Part shown: positions 1-8,536 of the stretch, piece after piece
Layout: the number at the start of each line of letters is the position of its first letter
Numbering within the stretch: the stretch's first letter is position 1
Source of the DNA: an uncultured Sphingobacteriales bacterium
GTDB taxonomy: Bacteria; Bacteroidota; Bacteroidia; Chitinophagales; Chitinophagaceae
DNA: 8,536 bases
NCBI GenBank assembly: GCA_946479435.1
Contig: CAMLFX010000111.1
Span: 1 to 8,536 of the forward strand
Direction of reading: 5' to 3'
Notes under the pieces: model-generated
The model's database searches: none
Seen by the model: only the letters and a program-made list of their open reading frames with translations
Told to the model about the DNA's origin: nothing
Program-made: the position numbers and the translations under genes

Positions 1-5
1 ACCAT

Positions 6-23
6 TGAAGGCGGTCGCCTTCA
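6..23. repeat. Short perfect inverted repeat at the left edge
   Basis: TGAAGGCG and CGCCTTCA form a perfect 8-base inverted repeat around a 2-base centre. As RNA it would fold as a 7-bp stem with a GGTC tetraloop. No run of T follows, so it is not a convincing intrinsic terminator. It could be the end of an upstream gene's hairpin, a protein-binding palindrome, or chance. The window edge prevents a decision. The rest of bases 1-70 shows no gene I can defend. Confidence 0.35.
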
Positions 24-70
24 TTACTGCCGAGTAAAAGGTATGCGGTATTCACTAATTTTATGAAAAT

Positions 71-550
71 ATGGATGCAAAGATATTTTATTACAATTCT
101 GCCCCTGCAATATTTTTTGTCGCAATATTAGGTTTTATGATGTTACCTCTCGTTATACTTAAAGACCTGCGTTTTCTCGAAATAGCGTCATTATCAATAT
201 GTTTACTTCTAGGGCTTGTTATTGGTAAAATGTTATTGTTTTTCATTGCAAAACGACCAGCGATAGCTGTTAGTAATGAAGGTGTAGAATTTGCAAATGG
301 TTTAAAAGTCGGATGGCAGAATATTAAACGTTTTGACGTAATTGATGATCGTTATGGAACGTTTGTAAAATTTAAGGTATTTGATGCCAAAGCAATTTTA
401 GATACAAAAAGGAGCATTGTCTACTCTTTGTTATTTAGCTTATTTAAAGACGAGATAACTATAAGACGTAATCTTTTATTTATAAAAGGGAAAAATAAAG
501 AGATCATTAGAATTCTTCGTGATTATCAAAGCCGCTATTCTTTTAATTAA
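71..550 (+). CDS. Small two-helix membrane protein, STM3941-like family
   Basis: This 159-residue protein has two hydrophobic segments, at about residues 12-30 and 36-58, followed by a soluble C-terminal part. The soluble part has a beta-rich pattern (A64-I-A-V-S-N-E-G-V-E-F, then G81-W-Q-N-I and a run of short strands). This arrangement resembles the STM3941 family of uncharacterised bacterial membrane proteins, whose soluble part looks like a pleckstrin-homology fold. The assignment is by overall pattern, not by catalytic residues, and the function is unknown. The ATG at 71 is chosen because the hydrophobic segment follows directly; another ATG at 63 is in a different frame and soon stops. 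No Shine-Dalgarno sequence is visible. The gene is much more AT-rich than its neighbours: sampled 60-base lines have about 25-28% G+C, against about 50% in a sampled line of sppA. This suggests recent acquisition or relaxed selection. Confidence 0.7.
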   Translation: MDAKIFYYNSAPAIFFVAILGFMMLPLVILKDLRFLEIASLSICLLLGLVIGKMLLFFIAKRPAIAVSNEGVEFANGLKVGWQNIKRFDVIDDRYGTFVKFKVFDAKAILDTKRSIVYSLLFSLFKDEITIRRNLLFIKGKNKEIIRILRDYQSRYSFN

Positions 551-563
551 GTTTTACCGATAA

Positions 564-589
564 ATACCTGCTATTCACCGAATAGGTAT
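564..589 (+). terminator. Hairpin behind the membrane protein gene, possible weak terminator
   Basis: ATACC (564-568) pairs with GGTAT (585-589), and TATTC (572-576) pairs with GAATA (580-584). Three unpaired bases, TGC, bulge on the left side and the loop is ACC. The hairpin lies 14 bases after the stop codon, which fits a transcript end. No T-run follows, so termination would be weak or factor-dependent. It could also be an mRNA-stabilising 3' structure. Confidence 0.35.
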
Positions 590-613
590 CCATACATTGT
601 ATAGGAACGCACG

Positions 614-621
614 TATATTTG
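614..621 (+). promoter_or_regulatory. Candidate sppA promoter, -7 element
   Basis: TATATTTG fits the Bacteroidota -7 consensus TAnnTTTG exactly and lies 35 bases before the sppA start codon. A TTG at 597-599 could act as the -33 element, but the spacing of 14 bases is shorter than the usual 19-21 or so. The -33 part is therefore weak, and the call rests on the -7 match and the position. Confidence 0.4.
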
Positions 622-656
622 TGCCTGCCATACAATAAATATGATGGCTTTACAGC

Positions 657-2444
657 ATGAAACAATTTTTTAAGATGTTCTTCGCCTCAATGCTGGCGAT
701 GATTGTTACAGGGGTTATCATTGTGGGTATATCGATAGGTCTCATTGTAGGCGCTGTCAGCAAAGCTACTACCCCCGATTCTGAACCAAGTACTGTTAAG
801 GCAAAAAGTGTATTGGTTGTTGACCTGAACCGCAATTTTCATGAATTGGGCGAGCGCAATTCATTTGCCGTATTCAACAAGGAGAATGCTTATACCGCAG
901 GTTTGTACGATGCCTTAAGGGCTATAGAGTATGCTAAAAGCGATGATCATATTAAAGGTGTATTGATAAAACTCGCCCCAAGCCCCAATGGCTGGGCTAC
1001 TATGCAGCAACTGCGCCAGGCCATTCAAAGTTTCAGGCTGGCTAATAAGTTTGTATATGCGTATGGCGAAAATATAACACAGGGGGCCTACTTTGTAGCA
1101 TCGGCTGCCGATAGTGTGTATTTGAATCCAGTTGGTGATTTTGACCTTAAGGGCTTTGCCACTACCATACCTTTCTTTAAGGGTACGCTTGAAAAGCTGG
1201 AGATACAACCCGAAATATTTTATGCAGGCAAGTTCAAAAGCGCTACAGAGCCTTTGCGTGCCGATAAAATGAGCGATCCCAATCGTGAGCAGGTTACCGA
1301 ATTTCTTTCTGATTTCTGGAGCGCTTATTTAAATGCGGCATCGGAGCATACACATGCTGATACGACTACTATACACCAGTGGGCAGCTACAGGTGCTATA
1401 CTTTTCCCCACCGATGCATTGAATCATAAATTAGTAGATGGCCTTTTGTACTGGGATGAAGTAGAAAAGCGCATGCGCGCAAAAACCGGCACTAAAGAAG
1501 ACGATGAGATAAACTATGTAAAGCTGGATGAATATGCCGATAACGTGCGCAGAAAACATAAAACTAACGATGATAAGATAGCCGTATTGTTTGCTGAAGG
1601 CGATATAGTAAGTGGCGATGGTAATGACAATGCACAGATCATATCGTCGGAAGGTATGACGGAGCAGATACGCAAGCTGGCAAAGAATGATAAGGTGAAA
1701 GCTGTGGTATTGCGCGTAAACTCTCCCGGTGGCAGCGCATTGGCATCGGAAGTGATACTGCGCGAGCTGAACCTGCTACACGAAAAAAAGCCGGTAATTG
1801 TTTCTATGGGCGATGTAGCAGCTTCAGGTGGTTACTATATCTCTTGCCAGGCCGATAGCATTTTTGCTATGCCTAATACTATAACAGGCAGTATTGGTGT
1901 ATTTGGTATCATGTTCAATGCATCGAACCTGATGAAAAATAAACTGGGTGTAACATTCGACGGTGTTAAAAATACGCCTTATGCCGACTTTCCTTCACCT
2001 GCCCGTGCTATGACCGCCGATGAAATGCAACGTATGCAACGCTCGGTTGATAATACTTATGAGATATTTAAAAGCAGGGTGGCAAAAGGCCGTGGCATGA
2101 GCATGGAAAATGTGGACAGTATAGCCCAGGGCCGCGTATGGACAGGTAGCGACGCCAAAGATTTGGGTCTGGTTGATGGTCTGGGCGACCTCGACAGGGC
2201 TATTGAAAGTGCATCGAAACTGGCCAAGCTGAAAGATTACCAAATTGTTACTTATCCTTCACCTACCGACAGGTTTGAAAAAATGGTACAAAGCATGCAA
2301 CGTTTTTCATCTTCGGCTATGCTAAAGGCGGCCTTGCAGGAAGAGATGGCACCCGAATATGAATATTTAAAAGAGGTAAAAAGCTTATACAACATGAATG
2401 GTAAAACAATGATGGCTTTACCGTTTAAAGTGAAAGTTTACTAA
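657..2444 (+). CDS. sppA: Signal peptide peptidase SppA, 67K type (serine protease IV)
   Basis: Membrane-anchored serine protease of family S49 that degrades signal peptides left in the membrane after secretion. The 595 residues match the long, duplicated form (E. coli SppA has about 618). One hydrophobic helix near the N terminus (about residues 8-33) anchors it, with the catalytic part expected outside the inner membrane. The N-terminal repeat covers about residues 50-290 and carries the general-base lysine K194 in G-K-F-K-S-A-T-E-P. The C-terminal repeat covers about 305-535 and carries the nucleophile S390 in G-D-V-A-A-S-G-G-Y. The N-R-V-type strand is V351-L-R-V-N-S-P-G-G-S, and G411-S-I-G-V-F-G is also conserved. 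Both members of the Ser-Lys dyad are present, so the enzyme should be active. The ATG at 657 directly precedes the positively charged start of the anchor. The gene has its own candidate promoter and a strong terminator, so it is probably transcribed alone. Confidence 0.95.
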   Translation: MKQFFKMFFASMLAMIVTGVIIVGISIGLIVGAVSKATTPDSEPSTVKAKSVLVVDLNRNFHELGERNSFAVFNKENAYTAGLYDALRAIEYAKSDDHIKGVLIKLAPSPNGWATMQQLRQAIQSFRLANKFVYAYGENITQGAYFVASAADSVYLNPVGDFDLKGFATTIPFFKGTLEKLEIQPEIFYAGKFKSATEPLRADKMSDPNREQVTEFLSDFWSAYLNAASEHTHADTTTIHQWAATGAILFPTDALNHKLVDGLLYWDEVEKRMRAKTGTKEDDEINYVKLDEYADNVRRKHKTNDDKIAVLFAEGDIVSGDGNDNAQIISSEGMTEQIRKLAKNDKVKAVVLRVNSPGGSALASEVILRELNLLHEKKPVIVSMGDVAASGGYYISCQADSIFAMPNTITGSIGVFGIMFNASNLMKNKLGVTFDGVKNTPYADFPSPARAMTADEMQRMQRSVDNTYEIFKSRVAKGRGMSMENVDSIAQGRVWTGSDAKDLGLVDGLGDLDRAIESASKLAKLKDYQIVTYPSPTDRFEKMVQSMQRFSSSAMLKAALQEEMAPEYEYLKEVKSLYNMNGKTMMALPFKVKVY

Positions 2445-2463
2445 AATAAAAGTCAGGTTTTGT

Positions 2464-2500
2464 TAGCCCCTTGAATGTAAAATTCAAGGGGCTATTTTTT
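2464..2500 (+). terminator. Strong intrinsic terminator after sppA
   Basis: A perfect 13-bp stem (2464-2476 with 2482-2494, core AGCCCC/GGGGCT) encloses the 5-base loop GTAAA. It is followed at once by six T (2495-2500). It begins 19 bases after the sppA stop codon. The stem is symmetric, but the T-run on the + strand favours the sppA direction. Confidence 0.92.
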
Positions 2501-2558
2501 AGTAGTTCTCAAAAACCGTTTTCAATAACATGCCGTAAGTGTATATGTAAACAATTTT

Positions 2559-2585
2559 AAAGAAAAACAAACAAAACAAAATTTT
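2559..2585 (+). promoter_or_regulatory. A-rich untranslated leader of the fasciclin gene
   Basis: Before the ATG at 2586 lies a stretch made almost entirely of A with scattered C and G (for example AAACAAACAAAACAAAA-like sequence), then TTTT. There is no GGAGG-like Shine-Dalgarno sequence. Unstructured A-rich leaders are common before well-translated Bacteroidota genes and are thought to help ribosome entry without Shine-Dalgarno pairing. I see no good TAnnTTTG promoter in 2501-2558; TATATG at 2542-2547 is the nearest AT-rich candidate and is weak. Confidence 0.4.
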
Positions 2586-3143
2586 ATGAAACGTATCTTT
2601 TTGATTCCCGTAATGGCAATAGCAATGTTAGGTTTTAATGTTACTAACAGTATTGCACAGGAAAAAACCGTGATGGTAGGTGGCGCAGCAATGTACCCTT
2701 CTAAAAACATTGTTGAGAATGCTGTTAATTCGAAAGACCATACCACTTTAGTTGCCGCCGTAAAAGCCGCCGGCCTGGTTGAAACACTGCAAGGCGATGG
2801 CCCTTTCACAGTATTTGCACCCACCAATGCTGCATTTGATATGTTACCTAAAGGAACGGTTGATAACCTTGTGAAACCCGAAAATAAAGCCCAACTTACA
2901 GGTATACTTACCTACCACGTGGTTGCCGGCAAAATGAATGCAAAAGATCTTAAAGCGAAGATCAAAAAAGGCAATGGTATGGCTAAGCTTAAAACTGTAC
3001 AGGGTGAAGAGCTTACGGTAATGGAAAAAGGAGGCAATATCTGGGTGAAAGATGCGAAAGGAAACACCGCGAAAGTTACAATTGCCGATGTAAACCAGAG
3101 CAATGGTGTGATACATGTGGTAGATCATGTACTAATGCCATAA
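2586..3143 (+). CDS. Secreted fasciclin (FAS1) domain protein
   Basis: This 185-residue exported protein has a signal peptide at residues 1-24 (K2-R3, hydrophobic core 4-17, likely cleavage between N-S-I-A24 and Q25). A single FAS1 domain runs from about residue 41 to the end. The FAS1 landmarks are all present: the first box G72-P-F-T-V-F-A-P-T-N-A-A-F, the Y110-H111 motif in L-T-Y-H-V-V-A-G, and the second box N173-G-V-I-H-V-V-D-H-V-L at the C terminus. FAS1 domains mediate adhesion or protein and polysaccharide contacts at the cell surface. No enzymatic activity is expected. There is no lipobox cysteine and no C-terminal sorting domain, so the protein is probably periplasmic or released. 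It is flanked by terminators on both sides, which indicates a one-gene transcript. Its exact role in this organism cannot be read from the sequence. Confidence 0.93.
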   Translation: MKRIFLIPVMAIAMLGFNVTNSIAQEKTVMVGGAAMYPSKNIVENAVNSKDHTTLVAAVKAAGLVETLQGDGPFTVFAPTNAAFDMLPKGTVDNLVKPENKAQLTGILTYHVVAGKMNAKDLKAKIKKGNGMAKLKTVQGEELTVMEKGGNIWVKDAKGNTAKVTIADVNQSNGVIHVVDHVLMP

Positions 3144-3182
3144 GTATCTGCTGGAAAAAAGCGTTTTTTATTAGCTTCATAG

Positions 3183-3190
3183 TATCTTTA
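3183..3190 (+). promoter_or_regulatory. Candidate sdaA promoter, -7 element overlapping the upstream terminator
   Basis: TATCTTTA matches the Bacteroidota -7 consensus TAnnTTTG at all fixed positions except the last. Its final A is also the first base of the terminator stem. Transcription would start about 5-8 bases downstream, inside the hairpin, leaving a leader of roughly 30 bases before the TTG start at 3230. The expected -33 region (around 3163) is T-rich but has no clear TTG, so the call is tentative. Confidence 0.35.
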
Positions 3191-3222
3191 GGGGGAAATT
3201 CTTTTCCCCCTTTTTAATTTTT
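3190..3222 (+). terminator. Strong intrinsic terminator after the fasciclin gene
   Basis: AGGGGGAAA (3190-3198) pairs perfectly with TTTCCCCCT (3203-3211) around the loop TTCT. The T-rich tail TTTTTAATTTTT ends the structure. It lies about 46 bases after the fasciclin stop codon and only 7 bases before the sdaA start codon. Confidence 0.9.
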
Positions 3223-3229
3223 ATATCCT

Positions 3230-4654
3230 TTGAAGAAAGAGAGTATTTCGGTATTCGATATTTTTAAGATTGGCGTTGGTCCCAGCAGCTCTCATACTCT
3301 TGGTCCCTGGCGTGCAGCCATGCGTTTTGTTGATACTGTAAAAGAGCGTGGTATTGACAATGTAGTCTCGGTAAAAGCTTTATTATACGGTTCTTTGGCT
3401 AAAACAGGCAAGGGTCATGGCACCGATGTAGCTGTAATACTTGGCTTGAATGGAGAAGATCCCGTTACTTTCGATGTGAATGAGATAACGCCAAGAATGC
3501 AGCAAATAGCTACCGAAAAAAAGCTGAACCTCGGGCTGGGAAAAGTTATCAGCTTTGACCCCGCTGCAGATGTTGTTTTCCTGATGGATGAAAGTTTGCC
3601 GTATCACCCTAACGCGGTTACATTTTTATGCTCATTTAGCAATGGAGAAGAAATAGCCGAAACATTTTATTCTATAGGTGGCGGTTTTGTAATAAAAGAA
3701 GGGGAAGAAGGTGGTGCAGGCAATGAAGTTGAGCTGCCTTTCCATACCGATAATGCTGCCGACCTGTTGCATTGGTGCCGCAAAACTGGCTTGAATATCT
3801 CTGAAATAGTAATGGAGAATGAGCATGCCTGGCGCAGTGAACAGGCTACAAAGGAGGGATTATTGAAAATATGGGGGGTAATGCGCGATTGTATCTATAG
3901 GGGGGCGCATATCGATGGTGTGTTACCCGGTGGTTTGAATGTAATACGCCGTGCTGCCAAACTGAATAAGAGATTACTGAAAGATAAAACATACAGTAAC
4001 CATAAAGAATGGGTCGATGCTATTCGCAGTGGTGGACAAAGTTTCCAATATACGCTCGACTGGGTTAGTTGTTTTGCACTGGCGGTTAATGAAGAGAATG
4101 CTTCTTTTAGCCGTGTAGTAACTGCACCTACCAACGGAGCTGCGGGTGTTGTGCCTGCAGTATTGCAATATTTTATTGCTTTCTGCGATGGGTACGACGA
4201 AGAAAAGATCATCCATTTTTTGCTTACTGCATCAGAAATTGGCAGCATCTTTAAAAAAGGTGCTACGCTATCGGCAGCTATGGGTGGTTGCCAGGCAGAG
4301 ATAGGTGTATCGTCGGCTATGGCTGCAGCAGCACTTACCGAAAGTCTTGGTGGTACTGCCAGGCAAGCTATGCAAGCCGCTGAAATAGCTATGGAGCATC
4401 ATCTGGGCCTTACCTGCGACCCGGTTGGCGGGCTGGTGCAAGTGCCCTGCATAGAACGTAATACTATGGGTGCTATCAAAGCTATCACGGCATCGCAACT
4501 GGCATTACAAAGTAATCCTGATAATGCAAAAGTGTCATTGGATGCTGTGGTAAATACCATGTGGGAAACTGCCCTGGATATGAATCATAAATACAAAGAA
4601 ACCGCTGAGGGGGGCTTGGCTACCAATATTCCGCAGAGCTTACCAGAATGTTAA
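3230..4654 (+). CDS. sdaA: L-serine ammonia-lyase (L-serine dehydratase), iron-sulfur type
   Basis: Cytoplasmic enzyme that deaminates L-serine to pyruvate and ammonia using a [4Fe-4S] cluster. The 474 residues contain both domains in one chain: the beta domain (about residues 5-160, starting S6[16 protein letters not shown]) and the alpha domain (about 190-468, with A299[10 protein letters not shown]). The likely cluster cysteines are C354 (G-G-C-Q-A-E), C397 (T-C-D-P-V-G-G) and C407 (V-P-C-I-E-R-N). The last residue is C474, matching the C-terminal cysteine that caps the cluster in the Legionella enzyme. The start is TTG at 3230: an in-frame stop lies at 3215, no other start codon lies between, and the next ATG (residue 31) would remove the conserved S-S-S-H-T motif. 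The gene lies directly behind a terminator, with a possible promoter overlapping it. Only 23 bases separate it from waaA, so some co-transcription is possible. Confidence 0.96.
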
Positions 4655-4666
4655 CAAATGACTTAC

Positions 4667-4674
4667 TATCTTAA
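4667..4674 (+). promoter_or_regulatory. Weak -7-like element just before waaA
   Basis: TATCTTAA resembles TAnnTTTG at six of eight positions and ends 3 bases before the GTG start of waaA. If used, the transcript would begin at or within a few bases of the start codon, giving a leaderless mRNA. No -33 element is evident. The alternative is that waaA is transcribed through from sdaA. Confidence 0.18.
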
Positions 4675-4677
4675 GGC

Positions 4678-5919
4678 GTGCAATTACTGCTTTACCGGAT
4701 ATTTTTATTTCTCTATAGATTAGGCATACGTGTCGCATCCAACTTCAATCCTAAAGCAAAAAAATGGAGGGAAGGCAGGAAACATTTGTTCGATAAGATA
4801 GCTACGGAAATGATCCGGCATGGGGAGCGGAGAATATGGATACACTGCTCATCGTTGGGCGAATTTGAACAGGGGCGGCCTATAATGGAAGCACTTCGTC
4901 GCGACTACCCACAATATAAAATTGTACTTACCTTCTTCTCGCCATCAGGCTATGAAGTGCGTAAGGATACACCGTTGGCCGATTATGTTTTCTACATGCC
5001 GCTCGATGGTAAGAAGAAATCAAAACGTTTTCTGGAGCTGGTAGATCCTGTAATGACCATTTTCGTGAAGTATGAGTTTTGGTATTACTACCTCTGCTAT
5101 TTAAGCACAAGAAAATCCCCCGCATTTATTATATCAGCTGCTTTCCGAAAAGAACAAGGATTCTTCAAATGGTATGGTGGTTTGTTCCGTAAAATGCTGC
5201 GCAACTTCAATCACATCTTCGTACAAGATCAGCAATCAAAGGATTTGCTTGCGGGAATTGACCTTAAGGATGCAATAAGTGTTTCAGGAGATACCCGTTA
5301 CGACAGGGTGGCTGAGATAGCTGATAACGTTAAACAATTTCCTATTGTAGAACAGTTTGCGGCAGGCAATAAATTACTGGTAGCAGGCAGTACCTGGCCC
5401 GATGATGAAAATATATTGAAAGAGAGTTTGTCAACTTTACTGAAAGGTTGGAAGCTAATCATCGCTCCTCACGAAATAGATACGCCGCATATCAAGCAGG
5501 TACAAGACCTGTTTGGCGATGCTTGTACGTTATATTCAAATCCAATAGATGCAGCCAACAAAAAGGTCTTGATCATTGACAATATCGGTATGCTTTCCAG
5601 CCTGTACAGCTATGGTTCAATAGCTTTTGTAGGTGGTGGTTTTCAGAAAGGTGGTATACACAACGCTTTAGAGCCTGCAATATTCGGCTTACCTGTGCTT
5701 TTTGGCCCTGTTTACGAGAAGTTTATCGAGGCAAAAGAACTGGTAGCAAATGGTTATGCTTTCCCTGTACATAACGCTTCGGAATTTAACAATTCATTGC
5801 AGCGCCTTACTGCTCAAGATCTTGAAAAGCTGCAAAGCGAAATAAAGGTCTATATGCAGGCCCATACTGGCGCTACTGGTAAAATTATGAGCCATTTATC
5901 GGCTAACTACCTGCGTTAG
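4678..5919 (+). CDS. waaA: 3-deoxy-D-manno-octulosonic acid (Kdo) transferase WaaA/KdtA
   Basis: Inner-membrane glycosyltransferase (family GT30) that transfers Kdo from CMP-Kdo to the lipid A precursor on the cytoplasmic side. The 413 residues are close to the usual length of about 425. A hydrophobic N-terminal anchor spans about residues 2-19. The catalytic glutamate is E62 in S59-L-G-E-F-E-Q-G-R-P. The C-terminal nucleotide-sugar site shows A236-G-S-T-W-P-D-D-E, A263-P-H-E-I-D and the signature F317-V-G-G-G-F, then G326-I-H-N-A-L-E-P-A-I-F-G-L-P-V, F-G-P. S203-G-D-T-R-Y-D-R is also typical. The start is GTG at 4678, because an in-frame TAA at 4672 leaves only one codon between and the hydrophobic anchor follows at once. 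AAGG sits too close to the start to be a normal ribosome site. The number of sugars added cannot be told from the sequence. Because kdnA and kdnB follow, its donor may be CMP-Kdo8N. Confidence 0.95.
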   Translation: MQLLLYRIFLFLYRLGIRVASNFNPKAKKWREGRKHLFDKIATEMIRHGERRIWIHCSSLGEFEQGRPIMEALRRDYPQYKIVLTFFSPSGYEVRKDTPLADYVFYMPLDGKKKSKRFLELVDPVMTIFVKYEFWYYYLCYLSTRKSPAFIISAAFRKEQGFFKWYGGLFRKMLRNFNHIFVQDQQSKDLLAGIDLKDAISVSGDTRYDRVAEIADNVKQFPIVEQFAAGNKLLVAGSTWPDDENILKESLSTLLKGWKLIIAPHEIDTPHIKQVQDLFGDACTLYSNPIDAANKKVLIIDNIGMLSSLYSYGSIAFVGGGFQKGGIHNALEPAIFGLPVLFGPVYEKFIEAKELVANGYAFPVHNASEFNNSLQRLTAQDLEKLQSEIKVYMQAHTGATGKIMSHLSANYLR

Positions 5920-5959
5920 CCTACCTCCTTCAGTACATACACTATCCGTATATAATGCT

Positions 5960-5967
5960 TACTTTTG
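5960..5967 (+). promoter_or_regulatory. Candidate promoter of the kdnA-kdnB-kdsA operon, -7 element
   Basis: TACTTTTG fits the Bacteroidota -7 consensus TAnnTTTG exactly. It lies 22 bases before the kdnA start codon, in the 70-base gap after waaA, which is the expected place. The -33 region around 5937-5941 has no clear TTG. The leader from about 5973 to 5989 would be short and AT-rich, without a Shine-Dalgarno sequence. Confidence 0.5.
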
Positions 5968-5989
5968 CGGTCTAATTTTTTATATACTT

Positions 5990-7198
5990 ATGCCCGGAAC
6001 CGAACTATTTGGAGCAGAAGAAAGGAAAGAAGTAAATGATGTACTGGAAACAGGCATCCTTTTCCGTTATGGCCATGATGCACAACGCAACGGCCACTGG
6101 AAAGCCAAAGAATTTGAAAACGAAGTAAAAAAGATAACAGGCGCTAAATATGCGCATGCAATGAGCAGCGGTTCTACTGCGGTTGCAGCAGCGTTGGCAG
6201 CAGCAGGTATTGGTGCGGGCGATGAGGTAATTGTTCCTCCGTTCACATTCATAGCTACTATCGAAGCGGTATTGTTTATAGGTGCCTTGCCTGTATTTGC
6301 TGAAATAGACGAAACCCTTTGCCTGAGCGCAGAGGGTATCAAAAAAGCCATCACACCTAAAACCAAAGGTATTTGCCTGGTGCACATGTGCGGCGGCATG
6401 GCCGATATGGATGCCATTATGCAAGTGGTAAATGAACACAACCTGATATTGGTAGAAGATGCCGGACAGGCGTTTGCCGCATCGTACAAGGGCACCCCAA
6501 CAGGTTTGTTTGGGAAAGCAGGTAGTTATTCTTTCGATTTCTTTAAGATAGCTACAGCAGGCGAGGGTGGTGTATTGGTTACTAACGACGAGGAAACTTA
6601 CAACAAAGCAGATTATTATTCCGACCACGGACATAGCCACGTAGGTGCTAAACGTGGTATGGAGCAACATCCGATATTAGGCTTCAATTACCGTATAGGT
6701 GAGCTAAATGCCGCTGTAGGTGTAGCCCAAACACGCCGTGTGCCACAAATACGCGAAACGAACCGTAAGTACAAGAAGATGCTGGTTGACCTGCTTTCAC
6801 AAACGGAAGGTATTGGCTTTGCTAAGCTGGCTGACCCTGATGGTGACTCAGCAACATTCCTGAATTTATTAATGCCTGATACGGCTACCGCACAACGTGT
6901 AGTGGAAGAGTTCAACAATGCTGGTGTAGCAGGTTTCGATTACTGGTTCCTGAATATGTATCACTTCATTAACCAGTGGGATCATATCAAGGAAATGCGT
7001 ACGGCTTCTAAACTGGCTATCGAAGTATTGGGTGCACCACAAGATTATGCTAACCTGCAATTACCAAAATCGCAGCAAGTATTGGGGCGCCTGATATCAT
7101 TTGGTATCCGCTGCACATGGACTGAAGAAGACGTAAAGATCCTCGCAGCCAAAATATCCGATTGCGTTAAAAAAGTAGTTTCGGTAGCACATGCATAA
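5990..7198 (+). CDS. kdnA: 8-amino-3,8-dideoxy-D-manno-octulosonate transaminase KdnA
   Basis: PLP-dependent aminotransferase of the DegT/DnrJ/EryC1/StrS family (402 residues). In Shewanella oneidensis KdnA transfers an amino group from glutamate to the 8-aldehyde of oxidised Kdo, giving Kdo8N. The sequence follows the Shewanella protein as I remember it: the start M-P-G-T-E-L-F-G-A-E-E, F25-R-Y, A76-G-D-E-V-I-V-P-P-F-T-F, F103-A-E-I-D-E-T-L-C-L-S, V131-H-M-C-G, S211-D-H-G-H, D283-P-D-G-D-S-A and the Y318-W region. The PLP lysine is K186 in S181-F-D-F-F-K. D157 in the V-E-D-A motif should hold the pyridine nitrogen, and S60-G-S-T lies at the phosphate site. The next gene is its partner kdnB, overlapping by 8 bases, which strongly supports this function over a generic sugar aminotransferase. 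A candidate promoter lies 22 bases upstream. Confidence 0.9.
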   Translation: MPGTELFGAEERKEVNDVLETGILFRYGHDAQRNGHWKAKEFENEVKKITGAKYAHAMSSGSTAVAAALAAAGIGAGDEVIVPPFTFIATIEAVLFIGALPVFAEIDETLCLSAEGIKKAITPKTKGICLVHMCGGMADMDAIMQVVNEHNLILVEDAGQAFAASYKGTPTGLFGKAGSYSFDFFKIATAGEGGVLVTNDEETYNKADYYSDHGHSHVGAKRGMEQHPILGFNYRIGELNAAVGVAQTRRVPQIRETNRKYKKMLVDLLSQTEGIGFAKLADPDGDSATFLNLLMPDTATAQRVVEEFNNAGVAGFDYWFLNMYHFINQWDHIKEMRTASKLAIEVLGAPQDYANLQLPKSQQVLGRLISFGIRCTWTEEDVKILAAKISDCVKKVVSVAHA

Positions 7199-8270
7199 GA
7201 ATTTTAAGAACATTGAGAAAGTAGTTTACGGTCGCGGTAGTTTCGATACTATGGAGGGCATACTTGCTCCCGTACGCGAACAGAACGATCATTTCTTTTT
7301 ATTTATAGTCGACGATTATTTCAACGGCAAAGAATTGGCTAAACGCCTGCCTGCAACAGAAGCAGATGTTATCAAATTCATAGACGTTGATCCGCACGAA
7401 CCAACAACCGAGCAAATAGACAACCTGCGCGATGAAATATTGTCAAGCAAAGGTTTGCCATCAGGCGTTATAGGTATTGGTGGTGGCAGCATTATGGATA
7501 TTGCGAAAGCCATATCACTTATGTTTACGAACGAAGGTTCATCAACTTTATACCAGGGCTTGAACCTTATAAAAAAACCGGGCATCTATCACTTGGGTGT
7601 ACCAACTATTTCAGGTACAGGAGCAGAGGTTTCTATGACCGCAGTATTGACTGGACCCCAAAAGAAGCTAGGTCTTAAATGTGATTGGACTGTATTCAAC
7701 CAGGTGATACTGGATCCTGAATTAATAGCAAGCGTACCAACCGGTAAATGGTTCTACACAGGTATGGATACTTATATCCATTGCATAGAATCAGAAAGCG
7801 GTATCCTGAACAATGCATTTAGTCATGCGTATGCAGAGCAATCATTAAAGCTTTGCCGCGATATATATACGGGCCCTGATGCAGGACAAACACCGGAGAA
7901 TGATGATAAGCTGATGGTAGCCTCGTTAATGGGCGGTCTTAGTCTTACTTATTCTGAAGTAGGTGTATGCCATGCGTTGTCTTACGGCTTGTCAAAAATA
8001 TTAGGCGAAAAGCACTGCTATGCTAACTGTATCGCCTTTCAGCATTTGGAAGATTATTATGGCGATGCACTGATAGAGTTCAACGCTATGCTAAAGAGAC
8101 ACAATGTAACGCTGCCACAAGGCTTAGCTAAGAACTGGAGCGACGAGCAGATAACGGCTATGGCGCATGTAGCATATAATCTGCCACACATGTGGAACCA
8201 CGCCATTGGCCCCGATTGGAAAGAAAAAATATCTATTGATACTATAAAAGCGCTGTACCAGCGTATGTAA
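7191..8270 (+). CDS. kdnB: 3-deoxy-D-manno-octulosonate 8-oxidase KdnB
   Basis: Metal-dependent, NAD-linked alcohol dehydrogenase of the iron-type (group III) family, 359 residues. In Shewanella oneidensis KdnB oxidises the C8 hydroxyl of Kdo to the aldehyde used by KdnA. The start K3-N-F-K-N-I-E-K-V-V-Y-G-R-G-S-F is typical. The nucleotide site shows G97-G-G-S with D103, then P138-T-I-S-G-T-G-A-E. The metal ligands expected for the family are D193 and H197 (Y-T-G-M-D-T-Y-I-H-C), H261 (V-C-H-A-L-S-Y-G-L) and H275 (G-E-K-H). All four are present, so the enzyme should be active. Y121-Q-G with L126-I-K-K-P, and the F-Y-T-G-M-D stretch, are close to the Shewanella protein. Its ATG lies inside the end of kdnA (ATGCATAA, another frame), which suggests translational coupling. 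kdsA starts 2 bases after its stop. Confidence 0.9.
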   Translation: MHKNFKNIEKVVYGRGSFDTMEGILAPVREQNDHFFLFIVDDYFNGKELAKRLPATEADVIKFIDVDPHEPTTEQIDNLRDEILSSKGLPSGVIGIGGGSIMDIAKAISLMFTNEGSSTLYQGLNLIKKPGIYHLGVPTISGTGAEVSMTAVLTGPQKKLGLKCDWTVFNQVILDPELIASVPTGKWFYTGMDTYIHCIESESGILNNAFSHAYAEQSLKLCRDIYTGPDAGQTPENDDKLMVASLMGGLSLTYSEVGVCHALSYGLSKILGEKHCYANCIAFQHLEDYYGDALIEFNAMLKRHNVTLPQGLAKNWSDEQITAMAHVAYNLPHMWNHAIGPDWKEKISIDTIKALYQRM

Positions 8271-8272
8271 TT

Positions 8273-8536
8273 ATGAGCGCAAAAAAAATTGCAGTAGGAA
8301 ATATTAGTGTAGGTGCCGATGAGTTATTCCTTATCTCAGGCCCTTGTGTTATAGAAGATGAGCTGACCATGATGAAAACAGCAGAAATGCTGAAAGAAGT
8401 GGGCGAGCGTATGAACCTGCCTATCATCTACAAATCATCTTTTCAAAAAGATAACCGCAGCAACCTGAGCTATTACGATGGGCCTGGTTTGGATAAAGGC
8501 ATAAAAATACTGGCGAAGATCAAAGAACAATTTGGC
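8273..8536 (+). CDS. kdsA: Kdo-8-phosphate synthase KdsA, N-terminal part (cut by window edge)
   Basis: Cytoplasmic enzyme that condenses phosphoenolpyruvate with D-arabinose 5-phosphate to Kdo 8-phosphate, the committed step of Kdo synthesis. Only the first 88 residues of about 270-280 are in the window. Family marks are S22-G-P-C-V-I-E, Y53-K-S-S-F-Q-K-D-N-R-S-N and G70-P-G-L-D-K-G-I-K-I-L. C25 aligns with the metal-binding cysteine of the Aquifex aeolicus enzyme (C11); the metal-free E. coli type has asparagine there. A metal-dependent enzyme is therefore predicted. The usual F-D-K-A-N-R-S-S motif is altered to F-Q-K-D-N-R-S-N, but K59, N61 and R62 are kept. The start ATG is 2 bases after the kdnB stop, so the gene belongs to the kdn operon. 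The related DAHP synthase is less likely because the K-x-N-R-S motif is of the Kdo-8-phosphate type. Confidence 0.93.
   Translation, partial: MSAKKIAVGNISVGADELFLISGPCVIEDELTMMKTAEMLKEVGERMNLPIIYKSSFQKDNRSNLSYYDGPGLDKGIKILAKIKEQFG

Follow-up and report, generated by a model that had tools for sequence, protein, structure and literature searches.

Does a Bacteroidota locus for lipopolysaccharide (LPS) synthesis carry its own genes for converting 3-deoxy-D-manno-octulosonate (Kdo) to 8-amino-3,8-dideoxy-D-manno-octulosonate (Kdo8N)? The question is raised by a stretch of 8,536 bases from an uncultured Sphingobacteriales bacterium (assembly GCA_946479435.1, contig CAMLFX010000111.1, positions 1 to 8,536; the window), in which two genes resembling kdnA and kdnB of Shewanella oneidensis lie between a Kdo transferase gene, waaA, and the Kdo-8-phosphate synthase gene, kdsA. 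Judged from its sequence, the window is quite probably the front part of a Bacteroidota Kdo operon with a built-in Kdo-to-Kdo8N step. It ends inside kdsA and all downstream context is therefore supplied by relatives, of which the nearest named ones are Chitinophagales (Flavipsychrobacter, Chitinophagaceae). The finding is real and its core reading probably correct, with the trait wider and the setting odder than a preliminary description of the locus had held.

The genes are closely packed on the + strand, with exactly the order, overlap and spacing given in the preliminary description. The predicted Kdo transferase to lipid A, waaA (kdtA), lies at 4678-5919 (GTG start, TAG stop; 413 amino acids) and is followed after 70 bases by kdnA at 5990-7198 (ATG start, TAA stop; 402 amino acids), a candidate pyridoxal 5'-phosphate (PLP)-dependent 8-amino-Kdo transaminase with its PLP lysine at residue 186. 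The end of kdnA shares 8 bases (7191-7198, +) with the start of kdnB at 7191-8270 (ATG start, TAA stop; 359 amino acids), which suggests translational coupling of the two. The putative product of kdnB is a Kdo 8-oxidase of the iron-containing alcohol dehydrogenase (iron-ADH) family, with predicted metal ligands D193, H197, H261 and H275. Two bases further on, at 8273-8536 (+), are the ATG start and first 88 amino acids of kdsA, the rest being beyond the end of the window. WaaA matches PF04413 (E 1.5e-40) and NCBIfam PRK05749 (E 2e-45, under the curated cut-off), and the KdsA fragment matches PF00793 (E 2.7e-17) and PRK05198 (E 4.1e-23, under the cut-off on a fragment of this length).

The identities claimed earlier for kdnA and kdnB are borne out by near whole-length matches to the S. 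oneidensis enzymes and by conserved catalytic residues. In the family scan KdnA matches PF01041 (E 4.2e-78) and its best solved relative is S. oneidensis structure 5k8b, titled '8-amino-3,8-dideoxy-alpha-D-manno-octulosonate transaminase' (E 2.7e-127, residues 1-388), with the next chain at 1.8e-50. KdnB matches PF00465 (E 1.6e-22) and PF25137 (E 7.3e-10), and its best solved relative is 5k8c, '3-deoxy-alpha-D-manno-octulosonate 8-oxidase' (E 8.7e-123, residues 3-358). Structure 3rf7, named only as an iron-containing alcohol dehydrogenase, is about as close (1.8e-115), and the third match is at 4.3e-25. Residues K186, D157 and Q160 of KdnA, presumably the PLP lysine and its partner residues, are each kept in 107 of 107 aligned rows; as some genomes are counted twice by row, distinct sequences were also counted (96/96). 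The Asp-His-His-His set of KdnB, which is taken to be the metal site of the iron-ADHs, is similarly conserved by row (D193 109/109, H197 108/109, H261 108/109, H275 109/109). The window has all four ligands, as do 98 of 99 distinct rows; only locus L100 of genome G122 departs from this. Automatic annotation already labels many KdnB relatives '3-deoxy-alpha-D-manno-octulosonate 8-oxidase', and the gene label is therefore not new. The gene pair is likely to be a Kdo-to-Kdo8N pair inside a Kdo operon, this being the best reading of the sequences.

A scan of contigs identified 228 stretches encoding KdnB relatives, and the best 80, favouring the lineage of the window, were kept as related loci (L numbers). 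The genomes of these loci (G numbers) are mostly metagenome-assembled genomes (MAGs), in which an absent gene may reflect a gap. Record titles assign 79 of the 80 to Bacteroidota or a subgroup and one to Azovibrio. In 79 of the 80, kdnA precedes kdnB on the same strand at a distance of at most 1.5 kb; the remaining locus, L016, is cut at that point and shows the end of a kdnA. The pairing of kdnA with kdnB is not a chance one, because the two adjoin so consistently. Among 79 related loci, 15 show the same overlap of 8 bases, with start codons chosen automatically. Of the 67 loci with sufficient sequence, 58 have kdsA downstream, and in 23 of 65 a waaA gene precedes kdnA by no more than 1.5 kb. 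The locus titled Azovibrio restrictus (L002) has the Bacteroidota cassette and a KdnB 86 percent identical to that of the window; it is probably from a mislabelled or mixed MAG.

A phylum sample of 296 genomes, for which a completeness of 90 was requested (per-genome values were not displayed), contains KdnB (E ≤ 1e-60) in 22, KdnA (E ≤ 1e-75) in 19 and KdsA (E ≤ 1e-40) in 218. All 19 genomes with kdnA also carry KdnB and KdsA, and no kdnA was found in the 78 that lack kdsA. Fisher tests give 4e-27 for kdnA with KdnB and 0.005 for kdnA with KdsA; these values are uncorrected for relatedness and overstate independence because the sampled genomes are related. Three genomes have KdnB without KdnA at this threshold (G122, G149 and G173). 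G149 and G173 have a KdnA-like protein of 40-41 percent identity, and G122 has none at E ≤ 1e-45. Kdo8N was earlier called a rare, mainly Shewanella trait. The presence of the gene pair in 19 of 296 Bacteroidota genomes speaks against such a restriction, while the sugar is still described as a Shewanella hallmark in passages of two papers (PMC6357163; PMC3210612). A literature search found no title or abstract describing Kdo8N genes in Bacteroidota, or the transaldolase-CBS fusion discussed below, within a coverage that excludes most subscription papers.

In the proposed pathway KdsA would form Kdo-8-phosphate from arabinose 5-phosphate and phosphoenolpyruvate, and KdsC, encoded downstream in relatives, would remove the phosphate. 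KdnB would then oxidise C8 of free Kdo to an aldehyde, KdnA would aminate the aldehyde with glutamate as the amine donor, KdsB would activate the sugar with cytidine monophosphate and WaaA would transfer it to lipid A. The role of Kdo as the substrate, the arrival of Kdo8N in the LPS and its share there are inferred from the genes. The S. oneidensis system is alike in its near whole-length homologues, its catalytic residues and its tie to Kdo activation and LPS. It differs in that the window, from another phylum, has the pair ahead of kdsA with waaA before it, and kdsC and kdsB behind it in relatives. KdnB is reported, in work by Gattis from 2013, to use a metal and O2 and not NAD(P); an assay with NAD alone could therefore mislead. 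The idea of peptide resistance through the added amine reportedly goes back to the same work.

The kdnA genomes of the phylum sample fall into two lineages. KdnB is of the window's type in five sample genomes (72-84 percent identical) and divergent in 17 (38-53 percent). In the second lineage (L086-L100; for example G134, G200 and G230) KdnB is 43-53 percent identical to that of the window. The two lineages are alike in having kdnA, kdnB and kdsA in the genome, and differ in gene arrangement, in KdsD and in KdsB. In 11 of the 15 second-lineage loci kdnB adjoins kdsB (9) or only the HAD gene that neighbours kdsB (2), the neighbours in L087, L093 and L099 having been checked by family scan. This divergent lineage, too, thereby links the enzymes to kdsB, which speaks for the Kdo8N reading. 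The kdnA gene is within 2 kb of the kdsB/kdnB group in 2 of 14 genomes (G033 and G200, the latter with the order waaA-kdnA-kdsB-kdnB in L162) and elsewhere in 12. KdsD is present in all 14. An in-frame TAA is located inside the KdnA match in two of these genomes (G033 and G238).

Several observations weigh against the proposed pathway. Nine of the 67 related loci lack kdsA directly downstream and 42 of 65 lack waaA directly upstream. In a tree of 68 KdnB-type rows the lineage of the window forms one branch (support 92/89) with a length of 0.71 changes per column, which according to a warning of the tree program meets the long branch of the outgroup. Gammaproteobacterial KdnB rows form a separate branch (96/99), and a single origin of the second Bacteroidota lineage is without support (43/43) in the same 68 rows. 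Since the window's lineage is on a long branch of its own, its enzymes look like a separate, divergent clade, and a position so far apart from the Shewanella-like enzymes makes a shifted substrate possible. The activating enzyme of this lineage also departs from the Shewanella type, as judged by the residue before the [IV]DTPED motif of KdsB, a marker derived in this analysis and not a published rule. This residue is Cys in 42 and Ser in one of 43 KdsB sequences of the window's lineage, all from relatives, and not Glu.

Glu is found at the marker in 117 of the 118 Shewanella-type KdsB rows having that part of the protein; many of these are named by their source as 8-amino-3,8-dideoxy-manno-octulosonate cytidylyltransferase, and the presence of kdnAB in each genome was not checked. 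Glu is likewise present in all 14 KdsB of the kdnA genomes of the second Bacteroidota lineage. In 56 KdsB rows (36 + 20) whose genomes gave no kdnA match it occurs once, the others having Gly, Ala, Ser or Pro; G122, counted apart, has Gly, as do five solved KdsB that were aligned (among 17 matches). The marker thus speaks for a KdsB that activates Kdo8N in the second lineage and gives no such support in that of the window. Sharing of the Shewanella-type Glu by the window's lineage was considered and rejected on the Cys count of 42 in 43. KdsB of this lineage has changes of its own, among them Lys in place of Arg163 in 41 of 43, and a comparison of both kdn lineages with kdn-free KdsB found one weak common column (177, Tyr). 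If confirmed, the marker would allow Kdo8N use to be judged quickly from sequence. The exception among the 56, G164 (L178/L221), combines a KdsB of the Shewanella (Glu) type with the lack of any kdnA match at E ≤ 1e-45.

The divergence of the KdnB clade and the absence of the Shewanella-type Glu would also fit if KdnB and KdnA acted on another ulosonic acid related to Kdo, or on free Kdo bound for capsule or O-antigen, with lipid A linked through ordinary Kdo. A distant KdnA-like/iron-ADH pair beside a cytidylyltransferase nearest to PseF, in G288 and G173, indicates that such pairs may serve other acids. However, the kdn pair of this lineage precedes kdsA and is often followed further on by kdsC and kdsB or preceded by waaA, kdnA was not found in any sample genome without kdsA, and both proteins resemble the Kdo enzymes along their entire length. 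This alternative is therefore considered unlikely. An unrelated role for generic iron-ADH and DegT aminotransferase genes that came to lie beside kdsA by chance is scarcely credible. Both superfamilies are large, and G001-G004 each have five to seven further DegT matches, of at most 41 percent identity. The kdnA matches in these four genomes, at E 3.8e-220 or better, are however far above the DegT paralogues (3.1e-40 or worse), and neither the strict co-occurrence nor the adjacency of the genes is in keeping with chance.

The Cys at the KdsB marker speaks against full use of Kdo8N, whereas the preliminary description held that most or all of the Kdo may be replaced. A sub-case of the Kdo8N reading, not exclusive of it, is that Kdo8N enters part of the LPS and that KdsB accepts both Kdo and Kdo8N. 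The marker residue of the window's lineage, which is neither the Gly, Ala, Ser or Pro of kdn-free genomes nor the Glu of Shewanella, is consistent with this, as are the further group-specific changes in the enzyme, including that at Arg163. A single KdsB match (E ≤ 1e-25) is present in four of the five sample kdn genomes of this lineage (G095, G150, G194 and G253), and two are present in G003. Such partial use is possible, but is put forward tentatively.

The genes behind kdsA in relatives strengthen the proposed link of the kdn pair to Kdo synthesis, since kdsC and kdsB follow in many of them. In L001, L005 and L009 kdsA is followed by a gene for a 337-amino-acid fusion protein, a kdsC-like HAD phosphatase gene and kdsB; in L001 a small 23S-IVP gene is also present between kdsA and the fusion gene. 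Where 5.5 kb of downstream sequence is available (58 loci), all four of kdsA, fusion, kdsC and kdsB are found in 28, the fusion in 42 and none of them in 9. Of kdsB, kdsC and kdsD, which the preliminary description proposed to look for downstream, the first two are thus found there in relatives. No kdsD was found in L001, L005 or L009, where the fusion gene is located instead between kdsA and kdsC (L001:12452-13465; L005:12005-13018; L009:12019-13032).

The N-terminal part of the fusion is a transaldolase/fructose-6-phosphate aldolase (FSA) domain, with a match to TIGR00875 over residues 1-211 (E 8.2e-48, under the cut-off). In the L001 copy the family scan identified PF00923 TAL_FSA (E 7.5e-34) and two CBS domains, and no SIS isomerase domain. 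The CBS pair resembles that of KdsD, matching 4o9k (E 1.5e-11) and TIGR00393 (positions 152-265). Compared with KdsD/KpsF (TIGR00393), the fusion therefore has a similar CBS pair and a place among kdsA, kdsC and kdsB, with transaldolase/FSA replacing SIS. It shares its family, the Schiff-base lysine and the N-terminal aspartate with TalC/fructose-6-phosphate aldolase, but three site positions are altered in 71 of 71 rows (56/56 distinct): TTNP is TTTP, N-x-T is NVH and PF[VL]GR is PLVGR. The Asn position accordingly holds Thr, the Thr position His and the Phe/Tyr position Leu, a departure from the Lys, Asp, Asn, Thr and Phe/Tyr that are taken to be the canonical active-site set of transaldolase/FSA. 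The usual residues are found in three aligned solved relatives and in a plain TalC of G253.

The fusion (E ≤ 1e-60) was found in 76 of the 80 genomes of related loci, the matches in G315 and G342 being cut by contig ends, and 73 of the 76 show no KdsD (E ≤ 1e-30). KdsD is present in five, together with the fusion in G314, G339 and G344 and alone in G325 and G364. Two genomes show neither at these thresholds: G345, and G326, in which a truncated fusion gene is visible at locus L058. A strict mutual exclusion was rejected in view of the three genomes carrying both. In the phylum sample full-length fusions are present in G003, G095, G150, G194 and G296, each of which also has KdsA. The best TIGR00393 matches in these five are weak, with E values from 1e-12 to 3e-19, whereas most genomes with KdsD reach 1e-80 to 1e-109; the weak matches are taken to be the CBS portion or SIS proteins of other kinds. 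Among the remaining 213 genomes with KdsA, 209 have KdsD at E ≤ 1e-40 (208 of 296 is the tally by the search tool's own cut-off) and four do not; Fisher's test gives 3e-8, uncorrected for relatedness. These four, G027, G204, G272 and G288, have KdsA with neither fusion nor KdsD. G253, G325 and G364 lack a fusion between kdsA and kdsC and have KdsD.

From this distribution and from its position it is inferred that the fusion substitutes for KdsD, as a possible new source of arabinose 5-phosphate. It appears extra to central metabolism, because two or more matches of the transaldolase type (E ≤ 1e-25) occur in each of the five sample genomes with the fusion. The reaction of Escherichia coli FsaA, in which glycolaldehyde is added to glyceraldehyde 3-phosphate, is an example of a route that the fusion could take. 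The use of FsaA as an arabinose 5-phosphate aldolase with these two substrates is described in an excerpt of a published paper (PMC9947464). The full combination, with arabinose 5-phosphate from the fusion and not KdsD, the KdsD-like CBS pair as a regulator, and a Kdo8N product activated by the divergent KdsB, is plausible but falls a little short of an even chance. An enzyme making arabinose 5-phosphate would fill a gap in KdsA genomes that show no KdsD. Were the combination true, a second natural way of forming arabinose 5-phosphate would operate in the lineage of the window, the junction with lipid A would bear an amine, and the operon would depart from textbook Kdo metabolism at both the precursor and the product ends.

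The fusion and the kdn genes are separable, since G296 has the fusion and neither KdnB (E ≤ 1e-60) nor KdnA (E ≤ 1e-45) in its genome. In this genome kdsA, fusion and kdsC lie behind an elongation factor G gene (L155:10050-14842), and KdsB, with Gly at the marker, is encoded elsewhere. KdnB is also listed for the gammaproteobacterial genera Corallincola, Aliikangiella, Hydrogenovibrio and Sulfurivirga (the listing covered KdnB only). Because KdnA and KdnB occur together in two Bacteroidota lineages and KdnB in these genera, amines adjoining lipid A may be much more widespread than known structures would indicate, a point of relevance to outer-membrane charge and to the recognition of endotoxin.

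Some sample genomes carry diverged versions of these genes. G122 (L100, L132) has a KdnB-like gene on a very long branch, beside kdsB, in which two of the four metal ligands are lost (His to Gln and His to Arg). The lack of kdnA, the Gly-type KdsB and the ligand-poor KdnB in this genome are what would be expected if all three go together, and the gene is perhaps a relic of a lost Kdo8N pathway. The pair in G288 (L219:4462-9531) and G173 (L220:8202-11232) consists of a KdnA-like aminotransferase of 40-41 percent identity and a distant iron-ADH, accompanied by a cytidylyltransferase. In G288 the latter is nearest to PseF (E 2.9e-33, under the cut-off), and G173 has the same arrangement. An LPG_synthase_TM protein is also encoded in L219, and the KdnA-like protein of G149 is of the same kind. 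This gene set perhaps serves another amino-ulosonic acid.

The gene order of the whole window on the + strand is a gene for a 159-amino-acid protein, sppA, a fasciclin gene, an L-serine ammonia-lyase gene, waaA, kdnA, kdnB and the start of kdsA. The block at 657-5919, from sppA to waaA, also precedes kdnA in L001, L005, L009 and L024. As a candidate promoter 5' of kdnA, a TAnnTTTG site at 5960-5967 was rejected, as the window has 8 such sites in total against 9.57 expected. An 8-base inverted repeat (GTATATAA/TTATATAC) was also noted.

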